In this document: in pieces, positions 190 through 7,591 of the stretch
Position numbering within the stretch: the first letter of the stretch is position 1
Layout: each line of letters starts with the position of its first letter
NCBI GenBank assembly: GCA_026414605.1
Contig: JAOAIP010000045.1
Coordinates: 1-64,000 of the forward strand
Direction: 5' to 3'
Origin: Bacteroidia bacterium
GTDB lineage: Bacteria > Bacteroidota > Bacteroidia > B-17B0 > Aurantibacillaceae
DNA: 64,000 nt
The notes under the pieces: generated by a model
The model's input: only the letters and a program-made list of their open reading frames with translations
The model's database searches: none
What the model was told of the DNA's origin: nothing
Position numbers and translations under genes: made by a program

Positions 190-1188
190 TTATCCTTTAT
201 CGGATTTAATGAGATATTTTTTTTGATTAAAGTTGTAGGTTAGTCCAATAATAAATCTACCTTTATTTTTCAAGGCATCTGCAGTGCGTTCTTCGTATAC
301 ACGCCATTGCCAAGCCGTAGTGAGTTGGATATTCTTATATGTCCAATCGCATCCTAATCCACTTAACCATACATTCATTGTTGTGCCATTTACAAGTGTA
401 TTGTTGATATAAAGTCCTTTTGTGTATTCATAGTAATTTTGCCAAGATGGAACAAAAATGAAATTTTTAAGTTTTATTTTGTAAAATAAAAAATGATTGA
501 GTGTGATGCTATTGGCGATTTTTTCTTTGTAATAATTTTTTCCGTTTATTTTGTAGTTGAGGTTGATCATTGAACCTAATTTTTTATATCCTATTATATA
601 AGTCAATCCTATTGAATAATCTACACTGCCTGTGCCGGGTTGTAATAACAATGGTATTCTTTTGCCCCATTGGTCTTTGGCATAATAATTTCCACTTGGA
701 ATTTTTATTCCACTATAAAGTATCAAACGATGTTGAAATTTTTCTTCATAAATTTTTTTGATAAGATGGTATCCTATTAAAAATGTAGGGTCTGATAATC
801 CAAAGTGTTGGATTTGAATGGTATCTTCTCTGGAACGGGTTTCTAAAAAAGGTAGCATAGCATTGATTTCTATTCTTGGATGAATAAACCATTTGATACG
901 AAATTCATAGTTTTTGTAGGATTCATAATCAGATGAAAGATATTTTTTGGATGTATCTAAAGTAGGTTCTGTATAACTGCCGTGCATTACTCTGTAAGAT
1001 CCTGATGGGAAAAAAACACCTCTTTGATGTGCAGCATAATATCCATTAAATATGCGATAACGATGAAAAAACGCTATGTTACTTTGATTATCATAAGGTA
1101 AAATGCCCATAAAACAACCACAAATATCACAAGCCAAAATTATTTTTGTTGTGAAAATTAAAACACTTAAATACAATAATTTTTTCAT
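190..1188 (-). CDS. Secreted outer-membrane-type protein with N-terminal Cys motif, copper cluster member
   Basis: A 332-residue protein. Residues 1-19 form a signal peptide, and the mature N-terminus carries the motif CDICGCF (three Cys in six residues). The rest is rich in aromatic and alternating polar/non-polar stretches ending in a YNF-type segment, as in an outer-membrane beta-barrel or porin-like protein. It is the last gene of a minus-strand series with a small lipoprotein, an MbnH-like dihaem protein and an MbnP-like protein. Proteins with this kind of Cys-rich mature start do occur beside MbnP/cytochrome-peroxidase genes in Bacteroidota; a role in metal or electron handling at the outer membrane is inference. 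No family with known biochemistry was recognised. Confidence 0.7.
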   Translation of the reverse strand: MKKLLYLSVLIFTTKIILACDICGCFMGILPYDNQSNIAFFHRYRIFNGYYAAHQRGVFFPSGSYRVMHGSYTEPTLDTSKKYLSSDYESYKNYEFRIKWFIHPRIEINAMLPFLETRSREDTIQIQHFGLSDPTFLIGYHLIKKIYEEKFQHRLILYSGIKIPSGNYYAKDQWGKRIPLLLQPGTGSVDYSIGLTYIIGYKKLGSMINLNYKINGKNYYKEKIANSITLNHFLFYKIKLKNFIFVPSWQNYYEYTKGLYINNTLVNGTTMNVWLSGLGCDWTYKNIQLTTAWQWRVYEERTADALKNKGRFIIGLTYNFNQKKYLIKSDKG

Positions 1189-1321
1189 AAGTATAAATTT
1201 AATTGAATGAATTTGATTTTTAATTGATAAAAAACTTTTTTACCAAAAAATTAATTAGAAAATAGAATGTATCAACTAATTATAGATAAACAACAGATTG
1301 CTTTGATGGATGGCTTACATT

Positions 1322-1717
1322 TTAATCCCCTTCTGTTACATACAAATCCAGGGATCTTTTTTCATTAAAACGAAGATGTACTGAAGTGCCTCCTTTTACA
1401 ACATAGGGCGGTGGAATAGCATAATCGTATCCAACAGCATATAAATAATAATCTCCTTTATAAAAATTGATTTTATAAAAAGCATTAGCATCTGCAGAAA
1501 CTTTGGCGTCATAAATGGTAGTGTCATCTCCTGGAAAATCTTTGGCATTGTATTTAATAAAAATTCTTGCGTAAGGAATGTTTTTTCCGTGATGCTTTAC
1601 ATATCCTGATACTTCGGCTTTCCCGCCTATTTGATTTTTTTTGCAGGAAATACCAAGTATCAAAATAAACACACTACCGATTAGGATTGTCAAATTTTTT
1701 GTCGTAAATAAATTCAT
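1322..1717 (-). CDS. Small lipoprotein, carboxypeptidase-regulatory-like fold suspected
   Basis: A 131-residue protein with a lipoprotein signal: a hydrophobic N-terminus ending in LGISC followed by Lys-Lys, giving lipid attachment at about Cys25. The mature part starts with an AEVSGYVKH pattern that resembles the beta-sandwich (CarboxypepD_reg-like) domains of many Bacteroidota lipoproteins, with regularly spaced strands and a YLYAVGYD segment. Its start lies 44 bases inside the end of the upstream dihaem peroxidase gene, so the two are translated from one message. Its function is unknown; the context points to the MbnP/MbnH copper cluster. Confidence 0.65.
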   Translation of the reverse strand: MNLFTTKNLTILIGSVFILILGISCKKNQIGGKAEVSGYVKHHGKNIPYARIFIKYNAKDFPGDDTTIYDAKVSADANAFYKINFYKGDYYLYAVGYDYAIPPPYVVKGGTSVHLRFNEKRSLDLYVTEGD

Positions 1718-2711
1718 AATCCGTTAATGTATAAAGGAATTGGATGAGGTCTTGTTTTTCTTGATCACTCATAGGAATGCCATTTTGTAATAATGTATCT
1801 AATGTAGGACTTTGAACAATTCCAAATCTGTAATGATCTAATACTTGTTCTAATGTTTCAAATCTTCCATCGTGCATATAGGGGGAGGTGAGAGCCACAT
1901 TGCGTAAAGATGGCACTTTGAATTTATTTCTATCGTTTGGGTTTCCTGTAATTCGCATTCTTCCGCTATCTTGTAATGCAGGATTTACAGATAAGCCATT
2001 ATTCTTAAATGAAAAATCTGTCATCAATGGTTCTTTGTGGCAAATAGCACATTTTTGTACAAATAAATTATATCCTCTTTGTTCGGCTGCACTAAATGTG
2101 GCTTTTCCTTTTTTAACCATATCGTATTTGCTTTGATAACTATACATTGATCCCATAAATTGGGCTAATGCACGGAATATCCTTTGTGTTGTAATGCTAT
2201 CATCTCCAAAGGCATCTTTGAACATTTTACGGTAATTGGATTTGTTTTTTAATTTTGCGATTACATTTTCCATTGTTTCATCCATTTCTACAGGATTTGT
2301 AATCGGTGCAAGGGGCTGTACTTCAATGTGATTGATGCCTCCATCCCACATAAAATATGGATGCCAAGTAAGATTGAACAATGGAGGGGCATTTCTATTG
2401 CCTAATTGACCATTTACACCGTGACTTAAACTGTGTCCTGCATTGGCAAATGCGACAAAGTGCTGATGACAATCTCCGCAAGATATTGTATTATCTCGTG
2501 AAAGTGCAGGTTCATAAAACAATGATCTTCCGAGAATAAATCCTTCTTTGGTAAGGGGATTATTTTCAAAGTTGTAATGGGGTCTTGGCCAGCCCTCGGG
2601 CACTACCACACGGATATCATCCGCGGGTAGTGCGGGCTTTATTTCAGGATCTACTTTACATTGAGTAAAAAGAACAGTTATCAATAATATGTAAGCAACC
2701 TGTTGTTTCAT
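1674..2711 (-). CDS. Dihaem cytochrome c peroxidase family protein, MbnH/MauG-like
   Basis: A 345-residue exported lipoprotein (signal ends at about Cys18) with two c-type haem motifs: CGDCH at residues 78-82 and CAICH at 221-225. A later SPYMHDGRFETLEQVLDHY segment is typical of the bacterial dihaem peroxidase family. Family members either reduce peroxide or, as MauG and MbnH, make oxidative changes in a partner protein. The gene lies 3 bases downstream of an MbnP-like gene, and MbnH is known to convert a Trp of MbnP to kynurenine, which then binds copper. That pairing, rather than simple peroxidase activity, is the preferred reading. It overlaps the next lipoprotein gene by 44 bases. Confidence 0.85.
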   Translation of the reverse strand: MKQQVAYILLITVLFTQCKVDPEIKPALPADDIRVVVPEGWPRPHYNFENNPLTKEGFILGRSLFYEPALSRDNTISCGDCHQHFVAFANAGHSLSHGVNGQLGNRNAPPLFNLTWHPYFMWDGGINHIEVQPLAPITNPVEMDETMENVIAKLKNKSNYRKMFKDAFGDDSITTQRIFRALAQFMGSMYSYQSKYDMVKKGKATFSAAEQRGYNLFVQKCAICHKEPLMTDFSFKNNGLSVNPALQDSGRMRITGNPNDRNKFKVPSLRNVALTSPYMHDGRFETLEQVLDHYRFGIVQSPTLDTLLQNGIPMSDQEKQDLIQFLYTLTDYEFIYDKKFDNPNR

Positions 2712-2714
2712 AGA

Positions 2715-3506
2715 TTAATTGTGAATATGTTCTACGGTTATCATATCAGCGTAGTTGTCTGCAATCATTTTGGCCATAAGTCCTGGCGTTGTTACGTTAT
2801 AGGTAGTAGCAAGATTAATAGTATTAGGAGTTTTGAATATCTCACTAATATCTGTTTTGAAGTGAATTTCAGGGGTCATTGAACCAGATACATTTGCGGT
2901 AGCACTATTAAACGAAGGGGTTATCCACTTTAGTACATTATTCGTTCCCGAAAAACCTCCTATATGATAAAAAAAGCTTTTTGAAGCAGAACCAGATTGT
3001 GGTGATGTACCTTCCAGTTTTAGCATAATGTATCCTGTGCTCCAAGACCAAAACATACCATTAGCGGGATCTAATGCACCTGTTTGAGCCCCTGAAACAT
3101 TTCTGGCAGAATCAACTCCTATCAACATTTTGATGGCTTTGTATTGTCCTACGGGGATATTATTGAGTGTAAAAGACACCGTACTTGAACTATTATGATT
3201 TACCAAATAATAACTTTCAGGTACAGTATAAGTTGAATTATCTGTTTTTGTAAGGGTGATATTACTGATGTAGTATTTGAAAGTAGATATTTTTACAGAG
3301 TCACCATTGGCAGTAACATAAGTTTTGTTGTTCAATACCAAAGCACTATCGCCAAACATTGCTTCAAAAGTAAGAATTAACTTTCCTGTTGTGGCAGTAT
3401 TAGAGTTGTTGTTATTATTGTTATTAGATGGTTCTGATGGGTCTTTTTTACAATTTGTAAAAGTGATTATTGAAAGTGCTGAAATGATTAATGCTATTTT
3501 TTTCAT
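2715..3506 (-). CDS. MbnP-like copper-binding lipoprotein
   Basis: A 263-residue lipoprotein: signal residues 1-18, lipid Cys19 followed by KKD, then an Asn/Ser-rich linker. The mature domain has the MbnP pattern, with GKLILTFEAMFGDSAL at its start, a KISTFKYYISNI strand, a VDSARNVSGAQTGALDP loop and the MFWSWSTGYIMLKLEG segment. In MbnP proteins this last segment is conserved and Trp-rich. Characterised MbnP binds copper through a kynurenine made from Trp by MbnH. The MbnH-like gene is next in the operon, 3 bases away. The protein is probably anchored in the outer or inner membrane facing the periplasm. Which Trp is modified cannot be told from the sequence alone. Confidence 0.8.
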   Translation of the reverse strand: MKKIALIISALSIITFTNCKKDPSEPSNNNNNNNSNTATTGKLILTFEAMFGDSALVLNNKTYVTANGDSVKISTFKYYISNITLTKTDNSTYTVPESYYLVNHNSSSTVSFTLNNIPVGQYKAIKMLIGVDSARNVSGAQTGALDPANGMFWSWSTGYIMLKLEGTSPQSGSASKSFFYHIGGFSGTNNVLKWITPSFNSATANVSGSMTPEIHFKTDISEIFKTPNTINLATTYNVTTPGLMAKMIADNYADMITVEHIHN

Positions 3507-3722
3507 AGTTTTAAAATTTTAAGTTTTTCATTAATGAATTTAAATAGAGAAAATAATTATTGAAAATTTAGGTATCCATTGATAAAATTTGGATTTATTA
3601 GGATATTAGTTTGCATTAAATTTAAGCAAATCAATTTAATTTAGCCAAAGTAAAGTAATAAGTAGATGTTTTTATCAAAGATGGAATACCTAAAATTTAT
3701 TTGACAAAAGTAATAATAAAAA

Positions 3723-4103
3723 CTAACTTAAACAAGGGGGATGAAAGATAAATGTTGAAAACTCAAAAGAATATGAATAATAAGGGAGAATGTTGTGTGT
3801 TATTTTTTCTTCTAAAAATTTGAATTCGGTTAATGAATTATGGATGTATTCTTTTTGTTGAATAGATAATAAAATGTTTAATGAAGTTTCTGATTTTGTA
3901 TTGTCAGTGGATTTGAATTTTACAGAAAGATAACATTTACCGTGGCAATTTAATTCAATATTGTTTTTATTAATACAGAGATTATTCTCAATAAAATTTT
4001 TATTAAGAATATAGGACACAGCGATGTAGGATTTGTAAAAAGGAATAAAAAGTAATAAAACTAAAACTTCTGCTACTACAATTATTTTAATCCAATTTTT
4101 CAT
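3723..4103 (-). CDS. Small membrane-anchored protein with CHGKC motif
   Basis: A 126-residue protein with one N-terminal membrane segment (about residues 5-25), then a conserved-looking stretch with LCINKNN and NCHGKCYLSVKF, and a C-terminal tail ending FHPPCLS. Small Bacteroidota proteins with the same layout (anchor, a Cys, a C-x-G-K-C-x-L motif, an HPP tail) exist, but I know of no assigned function. The spaced Cys and His suggest metal binding, and its place upstream of the MbnP/MbnH genes on the same strand would fit copper. The function is inference; that it is a coding gene is fairly safe from its composition and domain-like order. Confidence 0.6.
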   Translation of the reverse strand: MKNWIKIIVVAEVLVLLLFIPFYKSYIAVSYILNKNFIENNLCINKNNIELNCHGKCYLSVKFKSTDNTKSETSLNILLSIQQKEYIHNSLTEFKFLEEKITHNILPYYSYSFEFSTFIFHPPCLS

Positions 4104-4160: not shown

Positions 4161-4629
4161 CTAATTCTTTTTTTGGGATTTATAGACATACATTAAACTG
4201 TCATTTGTATCAAAAAATACGTATAGGTTTTTATAGTTTAGTAAATTTGTAAGGTAAATTTCTTTAATTTGAGAGGGATAACCTTTGGCTATAAGCGAAT
4301 AATTTTTTTTAATTATTTTAGGATTATTGAAAGACATTTCTTTTATCTTGATAAAATCGGAGTAGTAGAGATCAGGTTCATACCAGACCTTAAAATATTG
4401 ATTTTGCTTATTAAAATACTGATCTGAAGGATAGTAAGCAATATACTTAAAAAACATCTATATACCGCCTGCTACTCCTCTTATCGTTTCTAACTTTTCT
4501 TTTTCAGAAAAATGTAAGGAAGCGGTGTCGCGCCAAAGATAAGCAAATTCACTTGTATCTATTTTTGTTTGAGAAAAAAACAAGAAATGAAATAATTAAT
4601 AATAATCCTATTAAATACTTGCATTTCAT
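4161..4629 (-). pseudogene. Broken small secreted protein (frameshift and in-frame stop)
   Basis: An ATG at 4629 starts a good signal peptide (MKCKYLIGLLLIISFLVFF), but after a run of seven T (4574-4580 as A on the plus strand) the frame closes within a few codons. Dropping one T gives SQTKIDTSEFAYLWRDT and continues to GVAGGI, where a TAG (4458-4460) interrupts. The same frame goes on directly as the 98-residue open stretch 4161-4457, which starts with ATG immediately after the TAG. Removing the two lesions would give an exported protein of about 155 residues. The family is not recognised. Alternatives are two separate small genes, or a sequencing error in the homopolymer plus one real stop. 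Confidence 0.45.
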
Positions 4630-4652: not shown

Positions 4653-6476
4653 TTAATGATGCCCGCCGCCGTCTAATTCACCTTCTTTAAGTGGAACTGT
4701 TTGTGGTACAAAATCTTCTTCATAACCGGGTTTGCTATAATCATAAGCCCATCTATGTACAACAGGTAATTCACCTGGCCAATTACCATGGATATTAGCC
4801 ACTGGATTGGTCCATTCAAGACCATTGGCTTTCCAAGGATTTTGTGGGGCTTTAGGTCCTCTAAACATACTATAAAAGAAATTAAAGATAAAAATTAACT
4901 GTGCTAATGCTCCTATTATTGCAGAGATAGTTATGACGACATTAACATCATACAAAGCATCAAACATAGGGAATTCACTATTCGTATAATATCTACGAGG
5001 AACACCTGCTAATCCTAAAAAGTGCATTGGGAAAAATACACCATAAGCACTAATAAACGTAAGCCAAAAATGTAAGTAGCCAAGTTTTTTATTCATCATT
5101 CTTAAATATAATTTTGGAAACCAGTGATATACTCCTGCAAACATTCCAAATATAGCAGAAAGTCCCATTACTATATGGAAGTGCCCAACTACAAAGTATG
5201 TATCGTGTACTGTGATGTCCAAAGTACTATCTGCTAAAATGATACCAGTAACCCCACCTGTAACAAAAGATGAAACTAATCCAATTGAAAACAAAGCAGC
5301 AGGTGTATATTGGATGTTACCTTTCCATAAGGTTGTAAGATAATTAAATGCTTTTACTGCTGATGGAATAGCAATCAGCAATGTTGTAAATACAAACACA
5401 GAACCTAAAAATGGGTTCATTCCTGTAACATACATATGGTGACCCCATACAATAAAGGACAAGAAAGCAATTGCTAGCATTGAACCAATCATCGCTCTAT
5501 AACCAAAAATAGGTTTGCGTGAAACATTGGCAATAATTTCTGAAGTAATACCTAAAGCAGGTACTAACACAATGTATACTTCGGGGTGACCTAAAAACCA
5601 GAACAAGTGCTCAAACAATATAGGACTACCACCACTATAATCTAATGGTCTTCCACCAATATAAATATCAGATAAATAAAAACTTGTTCCTAATAATCTA
5701 TCTGACAATAATAACAAAGCAGCGGATAATAATACAGGGAATGACAAAAGACCAATAATGGCTGTAATTAAAAATGCCCAAATTGTAAGTGGTAAGCGGG
5801 TCATTTTCATTCCTTTAGTTCTATAATTTAAAATTGTTACAATGTAGTTTAATCCTCCCATTAAGGATGAAGCAATAAATAAAGCCATAGACACTAACCA
5901 TAAATCCATTCCTAACCCAGAACCCGGCATTGCTTCTGGTAGTGCGGATAATGGGGGATAAACAGTCCAACCGGGACCTGCGGCTCCATCTGGCAAAAAG
6001 AGAGAAATTACCATAATTAAAGAAGATAAAAAGAAAAACCAATAAGACAACATATTGATAAAAGGCGAAGCCATATCACGGGCACCAATTTGATAAGGTA
6101 TCAACAAATTGGAGAAAGTACCAGATAAACCACCAGTTAATAAGAAAAATACCATTATTGTTCCATGCATAGTAACTAACGTTAAATAGGCATTAGGATC
6201 TAAGATCCCATCTTTTCCCCACTTATCGCCCATTATCCAATTGATAAAAGCGAACTTTTCTCCTGGCCATGCTAATTGTAAACGGAACACAATAGACATA
6301 ATCATTGCTATAACCGCCATCACCATTGCAGTGATAAGGTATTGCCTTGCGATCATTTTATGATCTTGACTGAACACATATTTGCTAATAAAACTTTCTT
6401 CATGATCTTCATAGCGATGAAGATCTATGTGTTCTTGTGCGTGCAATTCTTTGTTTGTGATGTTTATTGTTTCCAT
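4653..6476 (-). CDS. ctaD: Cytochrome c oxidase subunit I (haem-copper oxidase)
   Basis: A 607-residue inner-membrane protein with about twelve transmembrane helices. It is the catalytic subunit that reduces O2 to water and pumps protons. All metal ligands are visible: low-spin haem His104 (TMHGT) and His434, high-spin haem His432 (GHFHIV), CuB His297 (GHPEVY), His346 and His347 (GHHMY), and Tyr301 positioned to crosslink with His297. Intact ligands indicate an active A-type oxidase. It follows subunit II by 83 bases on the same strand and is probably cotranscribed. Subunits III/IV and the alternative complex III genes often found upstream in Bacteroidota are not in the window. The C-terminus is a soluble tail ending in Gly-Gly-His-His. 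Confidence 0.97.
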   Translation of the reverse strand: METINITNKELHAQEHIDLHRYEDHEESFISKYVFSQDHKMIARQYLITAMVMAVIAMIMSIVFRLQLAWPGEKFAFINWIMGDKWGKDGILDPNAYLTLVTMHGTIMVFFLLTGGLSGTFSNLLIPYQIGARDMASPFINMLSYWFFFLSSLIMVISLFLPDGAAGPGWTVYPPLSALPEAMPGSGLGMDLWLVSMALFIASSLMGGLNYIVTILNYRTKGMKMTRLPLTIWAFLITAIIGLLSFPVLLSAALLLLSDRLLGTSFYLSDIYIGGRPLDYSGGSPILFEHLFWFLGHPEVYIVLVPALGITSEIIANVSRKPIFGYRAMIGSMLAIAFLSFIVWGHHMYVTGMNPFLGSVFVFTTLLIAIPSAVKAFNYLTTLWKGNIQYTPAALFSIGLVSSFVTGGVTGIILADSTLDITVHDTYFVVGHFHIVMGLSAIFGMFAGVYHWFPKLYLRMMNKKLGYLHFWLTFISAYGVFFPMHFLGLAGVPRRYYTNSEFPMFDALYDVNVVITISAIIGALAQLIFIFNFFYSMFRGPKAPQNPWKANGLEWTNPVANIHGNWPGELPVVHRWAYDYSKPGYEEDFVPQTVPLKEGELDGGGHH

Positions 6477-6559
6477 ATACTTTATTTTGGGGCAAAGTTA
6501 GTTTTAATGATATGTTATTATTAGTGATTAAAGTAACTTTTCTTATTATTTAACAATTT

Positions 6560-7591
6560 TTATTTGCTTGCTAATGTTTTAAAGGATTTTTGTTGTCTAA
6601 GCCATTCATTATATTCTTGTTCTGTTTCTACGACGATTTTCATTTGCATATTGTAATGAGATGCACCGCAAATTTTATTACACAATAAGGTATAATCAAA
6701 TTCTACAGGTTCTTTTCCTTCTTTAGATCTTTGTTCATTAATTTGTTTCATTAAGTTTTGAACATAAGGGTCTTGACGCATTTCTTTGGTGGTCTTTGTA
6801 GGTTTAAATTTAAAAGTGGTAACCATTCCAGGTACGCAGTTCATTTGTGCTCTAAAGTGTGGCATAAATGCAGAGTGTATTACATCTCTTGAACGAAAAT
6901 AAAACACAACTTCTCTTCCAACAGGAATATGAAATTCATTTTTTACTAAAATATCATCAAATCCTGCTTTATCTGTAGTATCCAGGCCTACAGGATTGCT
7001 TCCTTCAATTTGACGATAATCTGTACTTCCTAATTTTCCATCCTTTCCAGGATAACGAGCCGTCCAGTCAAATTGTTTGGCATAAAGTTCAACAACAATA
7101 GGATTTTTTTCTTCAGAAGGGGCTGTAATTTCATTCCAATATTTCAATCCAAATGTAATAATGAATGCTAAAGCAGAAGCAGGAATTATTGTCCATAACA
7201 TTTCTAATTTGCTATTATCTGCATAGTAAATGGATTTTCTATTTTTGTTTCCTCTGTATTTATAGGCAAAATAAAATAATAAAGCATTTACTACTACAAA
7301 TACAAAACTAATCAGTATCAAATTCCAAAACATCAATTCATCTATGTGTTTTCCGTGTTCAGATGCTGCAGGAGGCAGTGTCTTATCATACCATCTATCG
7401 ATTTGATAAAAGAACATTCCTAAAAATATGATGCCAAATAGGAGCATTAAAGTTCCCATCAAATCATTTTCAGAGTCCGTAGGTTCCCATTCTTTGGTTT
7501 TTCTAATTTCTCTTGCTAACTCTATTACTTTAAGTAATTGATGAACTGCAAGAATGAAAAGAACAACTGCTAATACAATTAAAAGTTTCAT
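6560..7591 (-). CDS. ctaC: Cytochrome c oxidase subunit II (CuA subunit)
   Basis: A 343-residue protein that accepts electrons from cytochrome c (or an alternative complex III cytochrome) through its CuA centre. The CuA ligands are present: Cys304 and Cys308 in CNKICGASH, His312 and Met315, with the earlier His in the DVIHSAFMPHF segment. There are membrane segments at about residues 1-20, 45-65, 85-110 and 130-150, so it has more N-terminal helices than the usual two, as is common in Bacteroidota. No haem c domain is fused at the C-terminus. A consensus promoter lies just upstream (7613-7644), and ctaD follows downstream, so this is the first gene of the pair. Confidence 0.96.
   Translation of the reverse strand: MKLLIVLAVVLFILAVHQLLKVIELAREIRKTKEWEPTDSENDLMGTLMLLFGIIFLGMFFYQIDRWYDKTLPPAASEHGKHIDELMFWNLILISFVFVVVNALLFYFAYKYRGNKNRKSIYYADNSKLEMLWTIIPASALAFIITFGLKYWNEITAPSEEKNPIVVELYAKQFDWTARYPGKDGKLGSTDYRQIEGSNPVGLDTTDKAGFDDILVKNEFHIPVGREVVFYFRSRDVIHSAFMPHFRAQMNCVPGMVTTFKFKPTKTTKEMRQDPYVQNLMKQINEQRSKEGKEPVEFDYTLLCNKICGASHYNMQMKIVVETEQEYNEWLRQQKSFKTLASK

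Follow-up and report, generated by a model that had tools for sequence, protein, structure and literature searches.

The MbnP/MbnH pair of Methylosinus trichosporium (families TIGR04052, TIGR04039 and PF20243; structures 7l6g and 6e1c) is encoded by adjacent genes for a copper protein and a dihaem MauG-type partner: the first Trp of a W-x-W motif in MbnP is reportedly converted to kynurenine, with a His and a Met as the Cu(I) ligands. The pair is known far beyond methanobactin producers (PMC3621798). We describe a five-gene cassette built on such a pair at positions 190-4103 of contig JAOAIP010000045.1 from a Bacteroidia bacterium; "the window" denotes the whole 64,000-nt stretch of this contig that was analysed.

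Two described leader proteins bear on the first gene of this cassette. CruR of Bordetella pertussis (DUF2946, PF11162) has a CXXC motif, 45 residues, RAPP ending three residues short of its C-terminus, and then a gap of 162 bp; TonB receptors, Sco or MbnPH-like genes are found in operons that its relatives head, those with MbnPH-like genes being known mostly from Proteobacteria, and its nascent chain senses copper, whereupon arrest is relieved and Rho ends transcription (PMC9426467). The arrest has been demonstrated in vitro; RAPP/RGPP leaders of copper genes are on record outside groups such as Bacteroidota, and TonB-related ones occur throughout Gram-negative bacteria (PMC12992588). CutF of Rhodobacter capsulatus has CxxxC and a proline-rich end, and stands ahead of a multicopper oxidase gene whose ribosome-binding site is covered by a stem-loop; copper favours expression of this next gene (PMC9973294). 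Copper control of both operons has been shown experimentally (PMC9426467, PMC9973294).

The cassette matches the described pair in its adjacent genes, MbnP fold, M-x-W-x-W motif and His, and dihaem partner with an aligned Tyr, and differs in adding three proteins: a lipoprotein with a His-His motif, an outer-membrane channel, and a small Cys protein, named here for its CHGKC motif, that is a leader candidate. We slightly favour, as the best explanation of the whole, an MbnP operon under copper control whose sensor is an arrest peptide of a Bacteroidota type. The genes run on the minus strand in the order CHGKC, MbnP, MbnH-like, lipoprotein (LIP), outer-membrane protein (OMP):

3723..4103, minus strand: CHGKC small protein, 126 residues, candidate copper-sensing leader open reading frame
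3507..3722, minus strand: CHGKC-mbnP intergenic region, 216 nt, the expected control site
2715..3506, minus strand: MbnP-family lipoprotein, 263 residues, lipobox-like Cys19, PF20243 at E 1.3e-57
1674..2711, minus strand: MbnH/MauG-like dihaem protein, 345 residues, N-terminal lipobox-like Cys, CCP_MauG at E 3.8e-53
1322..1717, minus strand: small lipoprotein LIP, 131 residues, His42-His43 invariant in relatives
190..1188, minus strand: outer-membrane beta-barrel OMP, 332 residues, modelled with about 12 strands in a COG4313-like fold, N-terminal CDICGC

All five open reading frames that a sequence-only reading of this DNA had placed here are present on that strand, and the three bases it gave between the MbnP and MbnH genes are confirmed. 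Its overlapping lipoprotein and outer-membrane genes fared less well: LIP overlaps MbnH by 44 bases, but OMP begins 133 bases after LIP. From the end of CHGKC to the start of MbnP is 216 bases.

Two linked gene pairs around MbnP

MbnP (PF20243) occurs in 80 of 87 genomes of the order. We assembled 71 loci, consisting of 60 neighbourhoods taken mostly from the top of the listed MbnP matches, 10 from named genomes, and the window; removal of a duplicate (L042) left 70, and in 52 of these both flanks are long enough to contain the full set of five. The window, its end lying too near, stands outside this table. All five genes occur in 10 of the 52 MbnP loci; 16 have only MbnH and LIP, 9 MbnH alone, 8 CHGKC and OMP without MbnH, and 6 none of the four, and three mixed types occur once each. 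CHGKC and OMP go together (both in 19 loci, neither in 31, discordant in 2), as do LIP and MbnH (both in 28, MbnH only in 10, neither in 14, LIP alone in 0), and CHGKC and MbnH are unassociated (12, 8, 26 and 6 loci in the four combinations). MbnP thus stands at the centre of two linked pairs, one of CHGKC and the barrel, the other of MbnH and LIP. The second link does not hold everywhere, as 13 of 45 loci with LIP relatives are free of MbnH, mostly CHGKC-OMP-LIP clusters without MbnP.

Most loci in the table come from one family, and their relatedness makes the counts non-independent; the p-values for these associations disregard kinship and are not read as probabilities. This speaks for a clustering that reflects shared ancestry of close relatives with no functional link, a reading that we consider very improbable. 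The flanks differ across lineages while the cassette persists: cytochrome oxidase genes in the window's genus, where both loci holding the cassette (L002, L041) have the window's oxidase-cassette arrangement, and other genes in L043, L051, L053, L054, L071 and their kin. The order CHGKC-MbnP-MbnH-barrel also appears in other families of the phylum (L152, L155, L159, L165, L167, L168, L172). Recurrence of the cassette is not chance: the co-occurrence search proposed for the five genes returned the set in those 10 loci and in the window, under differing flanks, and the change of neighbours that had been feared in related genomes did not occur.

The MbnP/MbnH pair, the barrel and the lipoprotein

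The window's MbnP scores 195.3 bits against PF20243, above the gathering score of 27. A PDB search with the single sequence gave no match, and a profile of 11 MbnP proteins gave one credible solved structure, 7l6g (E 0.0039), the MbnP of Methylosinus trichosporium, in whose profile alignment Met151, Trp153, Trp155 and His181 fall on identical residues. An AlphaFold2 model (predicted local distance difference test score, pLDDT, 78) had six PDB matches at E <=0.001, all of them chains of 7l6g. The fetched loci hold 73 MbnP proteins, 50 with an adjacent MbnH, 20 without and 3 at an edge. Beside MbnH, W153, W155, M151 and H181 are each kept in 50/50, so the loss of a conserved Trp that might have undone the sequence-only reading did not occur; M-x-W-x-W is also present in all 14 MbnP proteins of the phylum loci. 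By homology, MbnP likely has a kynurenine-copper site made by MbnH: as in the described MbnP, MbnH probably oxidises the first Trp of W-x-W (Trp153) to kynurenine, which would form a Cu(I) site with Met151 and His181.

Several results weigh against assigning the described chemistry to this pair. MbnP reaches 47.5 bits against TIGR04052, below the cut-off of 140, and in place of the four-Cys motif named in that family its 263 residues hold one Cys (Cys19); the MbnH-like protein likewise stays below its NCBI cut-off (TIGR04039, 232.7 bits against a curated 362.85). Nor is an adjacent MbnH required for retention of W-x-W, which 19 of 20 MbnP proteins keep without one (W153 20/20, W155 19/20, M151 17/20, H181 18/20). 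The Trp loss expected in such proteins is thereby rejected, and the test fails to separate the groups. All six CHGKC-MbnP-barrel genomes checked (G049, G059, G067, G077, G080, G084) have an MbnP-MbnH-lipoprotein locus elsewhere, so MbnH may act from another locus. As separate observations, two MbnP proteins without adjacent MbnH read GHFWTW, with His replacing the conserved Met (L049 5998-6780, L067 5907-6677), and a paralogue without W-x-W (MWFGS; L055 2272-3066) lies close to an intact MbnP-MbnH pair.

The enzyme itself is a CCP_MauG protein (PF03150), a family that spans peroxidases as well as MauG. This breadth, together with the missed TIGR04039 cut-off, would suit an ordinary dihaem peroxidase acting beside an unmodified or copper-free MbnP, with neighbours forming a peroxide-defence set. 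MauG-type enzymes have a Tyr, in place of Met, as a haem ligand, and the window protein has a Tyr at the corresponding place: its best solved relative is 6e1c (titled 'Di-heme enzyme', E 6.4e-48), which we take to be MbnH, with a Tyr aligned to Tyr294. Among 51 relatives, the 45 of full length all have both CXXCH sites (residues 78-82 and 221-225 in the window protein), and 43 keep Tyr294. Given this and the invariant W-x-W, Met and His of the partner MbnP, we regard a plain peroxidase as improbable. TIGR04039 was rejected as a genome-wide detector of MbnH: it is unspecific, with matches in E. coli and Methanosarcina, and its cut-off was reached in none of the 87 genomes of the order. Tandem MauG/MbnH-like pairs were seen at G005:C12:9183-11173, G003:C1:1863182-1865190 and G033:C49:268831-270826, the better-scoring member of each outscoring the window's MbnH on this profile.

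The two remaining proteins gave no credible name from Pfam or NCBIfam, and each carries conserved candidate metal ligands. In LIP, His42-His43 is invariant in 20/20 aligned relatives, 6 of which match CarboxypepD_reg weakly and 6 DUF4198; the window's LIP matches neither. In the barrel, C20, D21, C23 and G24 are kept in 15/15 aligned relatives (CDICG lies at window 1131-1117), and the motif C[DNE]xCG follows context: among 50 OMP matches from the order and the named loci, it is present in 27/37 barrels near MbnP versus 0/13 away from it, one of the 10 without it near MbnP being a truncated frame. PF13557 (Phenol_MetA_deg) is matched by 4 of the 15 relatives, the window's barrel having no Pfam match. 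The barrel's AlphaFold2 model, of modest confidence (pLDDT 66, low at the N-terminus, from a 5-sequence alignment), shows about 12 long strands; its structural matches include the COG4313 channel 4rl8 (E 2.1e-07; template modelling scores 0.61 and 0.75, the latter normalised by target) and FapF. It differs from COG4313/PF13557 proteins in its N-terminal CDxCGC and its linkage to copper genes. The channel and the lipoprotein probably pass copper to or from MbnP. Both families also occur without MbnP or MbnH, a point against this reading, and LIP had no matches in the 40 phylum loci described below. Loci L102-L111 hold CHGKC-barrel-LIP clusters without MbnP, a third arrangement under the same head gene, some adjoining SCO1, an HMA protein or a small CxxxxCH protein.

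The CHGKC family as a candidate copper-sensing leader

The CHGKC protein has a hydrophobic N-terminus, Cys43, CHGKC at residues 53-57 (window 3947-3933) and a C-terminal IFHPP, whose two prolines (residues 122-123, window 3740-3735) are followed by three residues and the stop. In 22 aligned members C43, C53, C57, P122 and P123 are invariant, and mean column identity outside the Cys and PP registers is 30%. No credible Pfam or NCBIfam name was returned for the protein. Its relatives are found in 56 of the 87 genomes of the order (E 0.001) and in 113 of 296 sampled genomes of the phylum (E 1e-8). For their contexts we took 40 further regions of the order and 40 of the phylum, hand-picked from the match lists.

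Across this family, 114/115 members have CxxxC, 114/115 have PP followed by no more than 12 residues, and 113/115 have both, the exceptions being a truncated frame and a protein with an extended tail. Over the 113, CxxxC and PP are 66.4 residues apart (standard deviation 2.3, range 62-73); 1 to 9 residues follow PP, most often 2 (53/113); a further Cys stands 10 residues before CxxxC in 107; and the C-terminus is mostly [I/V]FHPP, with His before PP in 66 and Phe before that in 88. Of 310 other open reading frames of 90-160 residues from the same loci, 10 carry PP close to the C-terminus. A hydrophobic stretch precedes CxxxC in 112/113, and such stretches also occur in 167/310 of the background frames.

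The gene that follows is, for 114 members, MbnP (40), OMP (23), a TonB receptor (20), YtkA (13) or SCO (1), the remainder being other genes (13), a gene on the opposite strand (2) or another CHGKC gene (2). In 39/40 phylum loci at least one same-strand gene in the 3.5 kb downstream bears one of four labels, TonB receptor (28), MbnP (13), barrel (10) or YtkA-like (5); the exception, L150, has only a cytochrome oxidase gene there. TonB labels come from our own profile or cluster; Pfam confirmed them in 5/6 representatives scanned and gave no match for the sixth, in L178, a locus counted among the 39 on that label. Pfam neighbours in the order loci include SCO1/SenC, HMA, YtkA, E1-E2 ATPase and Rrf2.

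One TonB receptor, in L126, matches the TonB-dependent copper transporter OprC (E 8.9e-14); in the alignment GACTDKMD of this receptor falls on the CxxxM stretch of OprC and YHEMDD on the HxM stretch, which form the OprC copper site (PMC11213822). Within its group of 8 receptors, GACTDKMDP is present in 7 and HxMD in all 8; in a related phylum group GACTD[K/R]MDP is found in 5/14. In these loci (L121, L124, L126, L127, L130, L131, L132, L137) CHGKC is followed by a YtkA-like Met/His-rich lipoprotein and the OprC-like receptor, and some have an Rrf2 regulator beside them. What we take to be anaerobic ribonucleotide reductase or cytochrome oxidase genes adjoin some as well. The window's cassette differs in lacking a TonB receptor, a small barrel taking the outer-membrane place.

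Like CruR, CHGKC is a small exported-type protein heading copper operons; the two share a copper motif of Cys residues, a PP shortly before the stop, and a long gap to the next gene. It is also like CutF, under whose rules it has 126 residues (<150), CxxxC, PP within 15 C-terminal residues, and MbnP 216 nt downstream on the same strand (<1,000 nt) (PMC9973294). Those rules also name a cleavable Sec signal peptide; in CHGKC a hydrophobic segment is seen. The gap that follows CHGKC is long, with a median of 119.5 nt over 112 same-strand pairs; other median gaps are -1 nt for MbnP-MbnH, 3 for MbnH-LIP, 10 for MbnH-OMP and 45 for LIP-OMP. We conclude that CHGKC resembles CruR and CutF by anatomy, and on balance we think it a copper-sensing arrest leader rather than a chaperone. 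With 66 residues between CxxxC and PP, a chain arrested at PP would have its Cys motif outside the ribosome tunnel and probably across the membrane. During export the Cys cluster probably binds, or fails to bind, copper; its copper state would alter ribosome behaviour at the C-terminal FHPP; and this behaviour would probably decide expression of the genes past the 216-nt gap.

A competing view makes CHGKC a stable membrane-anchored periplasmic chaperone for copper or thiols, between the receptor or MbnP and the inner membrane, with PP as a docking motif. It draws on the hydrophobic segment before the Cys cluster in nearly every member, on the genes labelled TonB receptor, MbnP, barrel or YtkA near almost every phylum member, and on arrest by CHGKC being a prediction. 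A chaperone would sit poorly with the low conservation outside the Cys and PP registers in a protein that nonetheless preserves its CxxxC-PP spacing and a PP close to the stop, and with the CruR/CutF layout and the gap after CHGKC, long compared with most gaps inside the operon. We hold it to be unlikely. The small Cys protein, then, keeps the link to copper that the sequence-only reading gave it, but probably as a copper-sensing leader and not as a copper-binding partner of MbnP.

Other observations count against CHGKC as a leader of the described kind. Its family differs from CruR in having CxxxC and a further Cys, not CXXC, mostly FHPP and not RAPP ends, a spacing of about 66 residues and not 45, a range of 62-73 where the published variation for CruR is one or two residues, and its occurrence in Bacteroidota. 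None of the 22 members matched PF11162 (DUF2946) at E 0.01. CruR and CutF respond to copper in opposite ways (PMC9426467, PMC9973294), and CutF heads a different kind of gene from those that most often follow CHGKC. The gene upstream is on the same strand in 80/112 cases and within 50 nt in 35 of these, which leaves it doubtful in some loci whether CHGKC opens its transcript; and the family model includes the PP columns, so the presence of PP is partly selected.

Homology with DUF2946 was sought further and not found: hhalign gave a probability of 0.2 percent against five Bacteroidota DUF2946-type rows, and DUF2946 is absent from the 14 families listed for CHGKC at E 10, a search whose filters discard most weak matches. 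DUF2946 is itself rare in the phylum sample (8/296 genomes at E 0.001, 5 over the cut-off). Bacteroidota members are counted among CutF-like leaders (29 clusters; PMC9973294), which may include the CHGKC family. Of the 216-nt gap, we note that a search for a terminator-like site found none and that its RNA fold is borderline (z-score -1.87, 7 of 200 shuffles as good).

Copper supply as the likeliest role, and the wider family

That the operon handles copper is highly likely. Its recurring synteny and the invariant copper-site residues of MbnP point to a copper system larger than the MbnP/MbnH pair, as the sequence-only reading had proposed, and the two sub-modules and the neighbours of CHGKC relatives (OprC-like receptor, SCO1, HMA) support this too. 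At the window itself the copper neighbour is a cytochrome oxidase (4653-7591), upstream of CHGKC:

4653..6476, minus strand: cytochrome c oxidase subunit I, PF00115
6560..7591, minus strand: cytochrome c oxidase subunit II, PF02790 and PF00116

Between subunit I and CHGKC a 98-residue open reading frame (window 4161-4457) has no relatives in the loci searched, and the window begins, by eye, with a GC-rich, repeat-like stretch (1-60) in AT-rich surroundings.

The same reading spoke of uptake or sensing. Between copper import and detoxification we lean towards import, because CHGKC relatives have OprC-like and SCO1 neighbours and because a cytochrome oxidase adjoins the cassette in the window, L002 and L041; the likeliest role would be to provide copper for cuproproteins of the periplasm and of respiration, such as this oxidase. 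A role in detoxifying or exporting copper, or in storing it at the outer membrane, would suit a barrel whose likeness is to a general channel (COG4313) and to the secretion protein FapF, not to a TonB receptor, and efflux genes are the most frequent neighbours of CutF-like leaders (PMC9973294). Such a role appears doubtful, however, for a family that also heads OprC-like import receptors, has relatives near SCO1 and, in this genus, belongs to a cassette that adjoins cytochrome oxidase genes.

The sequence-only reading placed the pair here without methanobactin genes; pairs of this kind were already reported as common (PMC3621798). A search for PF05114 (MbnB/TglH/ChrH) across the 96% complete genome, the one search made for methanobactin genes, turned up a single gene, which lies on a different contig next to an EGKCG-repeat precursor. 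We dropped the idea that the genome has methanobactin genes, since this MbnB/TglH-type gene sits with that precursor and a DUF2063 gene. The operon in question (L191 2864-5703, G000:C51) encodes a 129-residue EGKCGEGKCG-repeat precursor, a Sigma70-type factor, the PF05114 enzyme and the DUF2063 protein, and resembles bufferin operons.

Among the papers listed in the literature searched, whose coverage left out most subscription papers, we recognised no description of the five-gene cassette. New as far as this literature goes are the arrangement of two gene pairs around MbnP, a Cys-tipped barrel and a His-His lipoprotein as its recurrent partners, and the FHPP family as a common head of OprC-like and MbnP-type copper operons. 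We tentatively suggest that one family of copper-sensing arrest peptides other than DUF2946 (C-x9-CxxxC, about 66 residues, mostly [I/V]FHPP, stop) heads two alternative outer-membrane routes for copper across the phylum: one through OprC-like and other TonB receptors, and one free of TonB receptors, through MbnP as a kynurenine-copper lipoprotein, MbnH as its maturase and a Cys-tipped 12-strand channel, joined in one order by the His-His lipoprotein. A fixed set of partners, two of them with candidate metal ligands of their own, gives concrete genes and proteins to the role of MbnP/MbnH outside methanotrophs.

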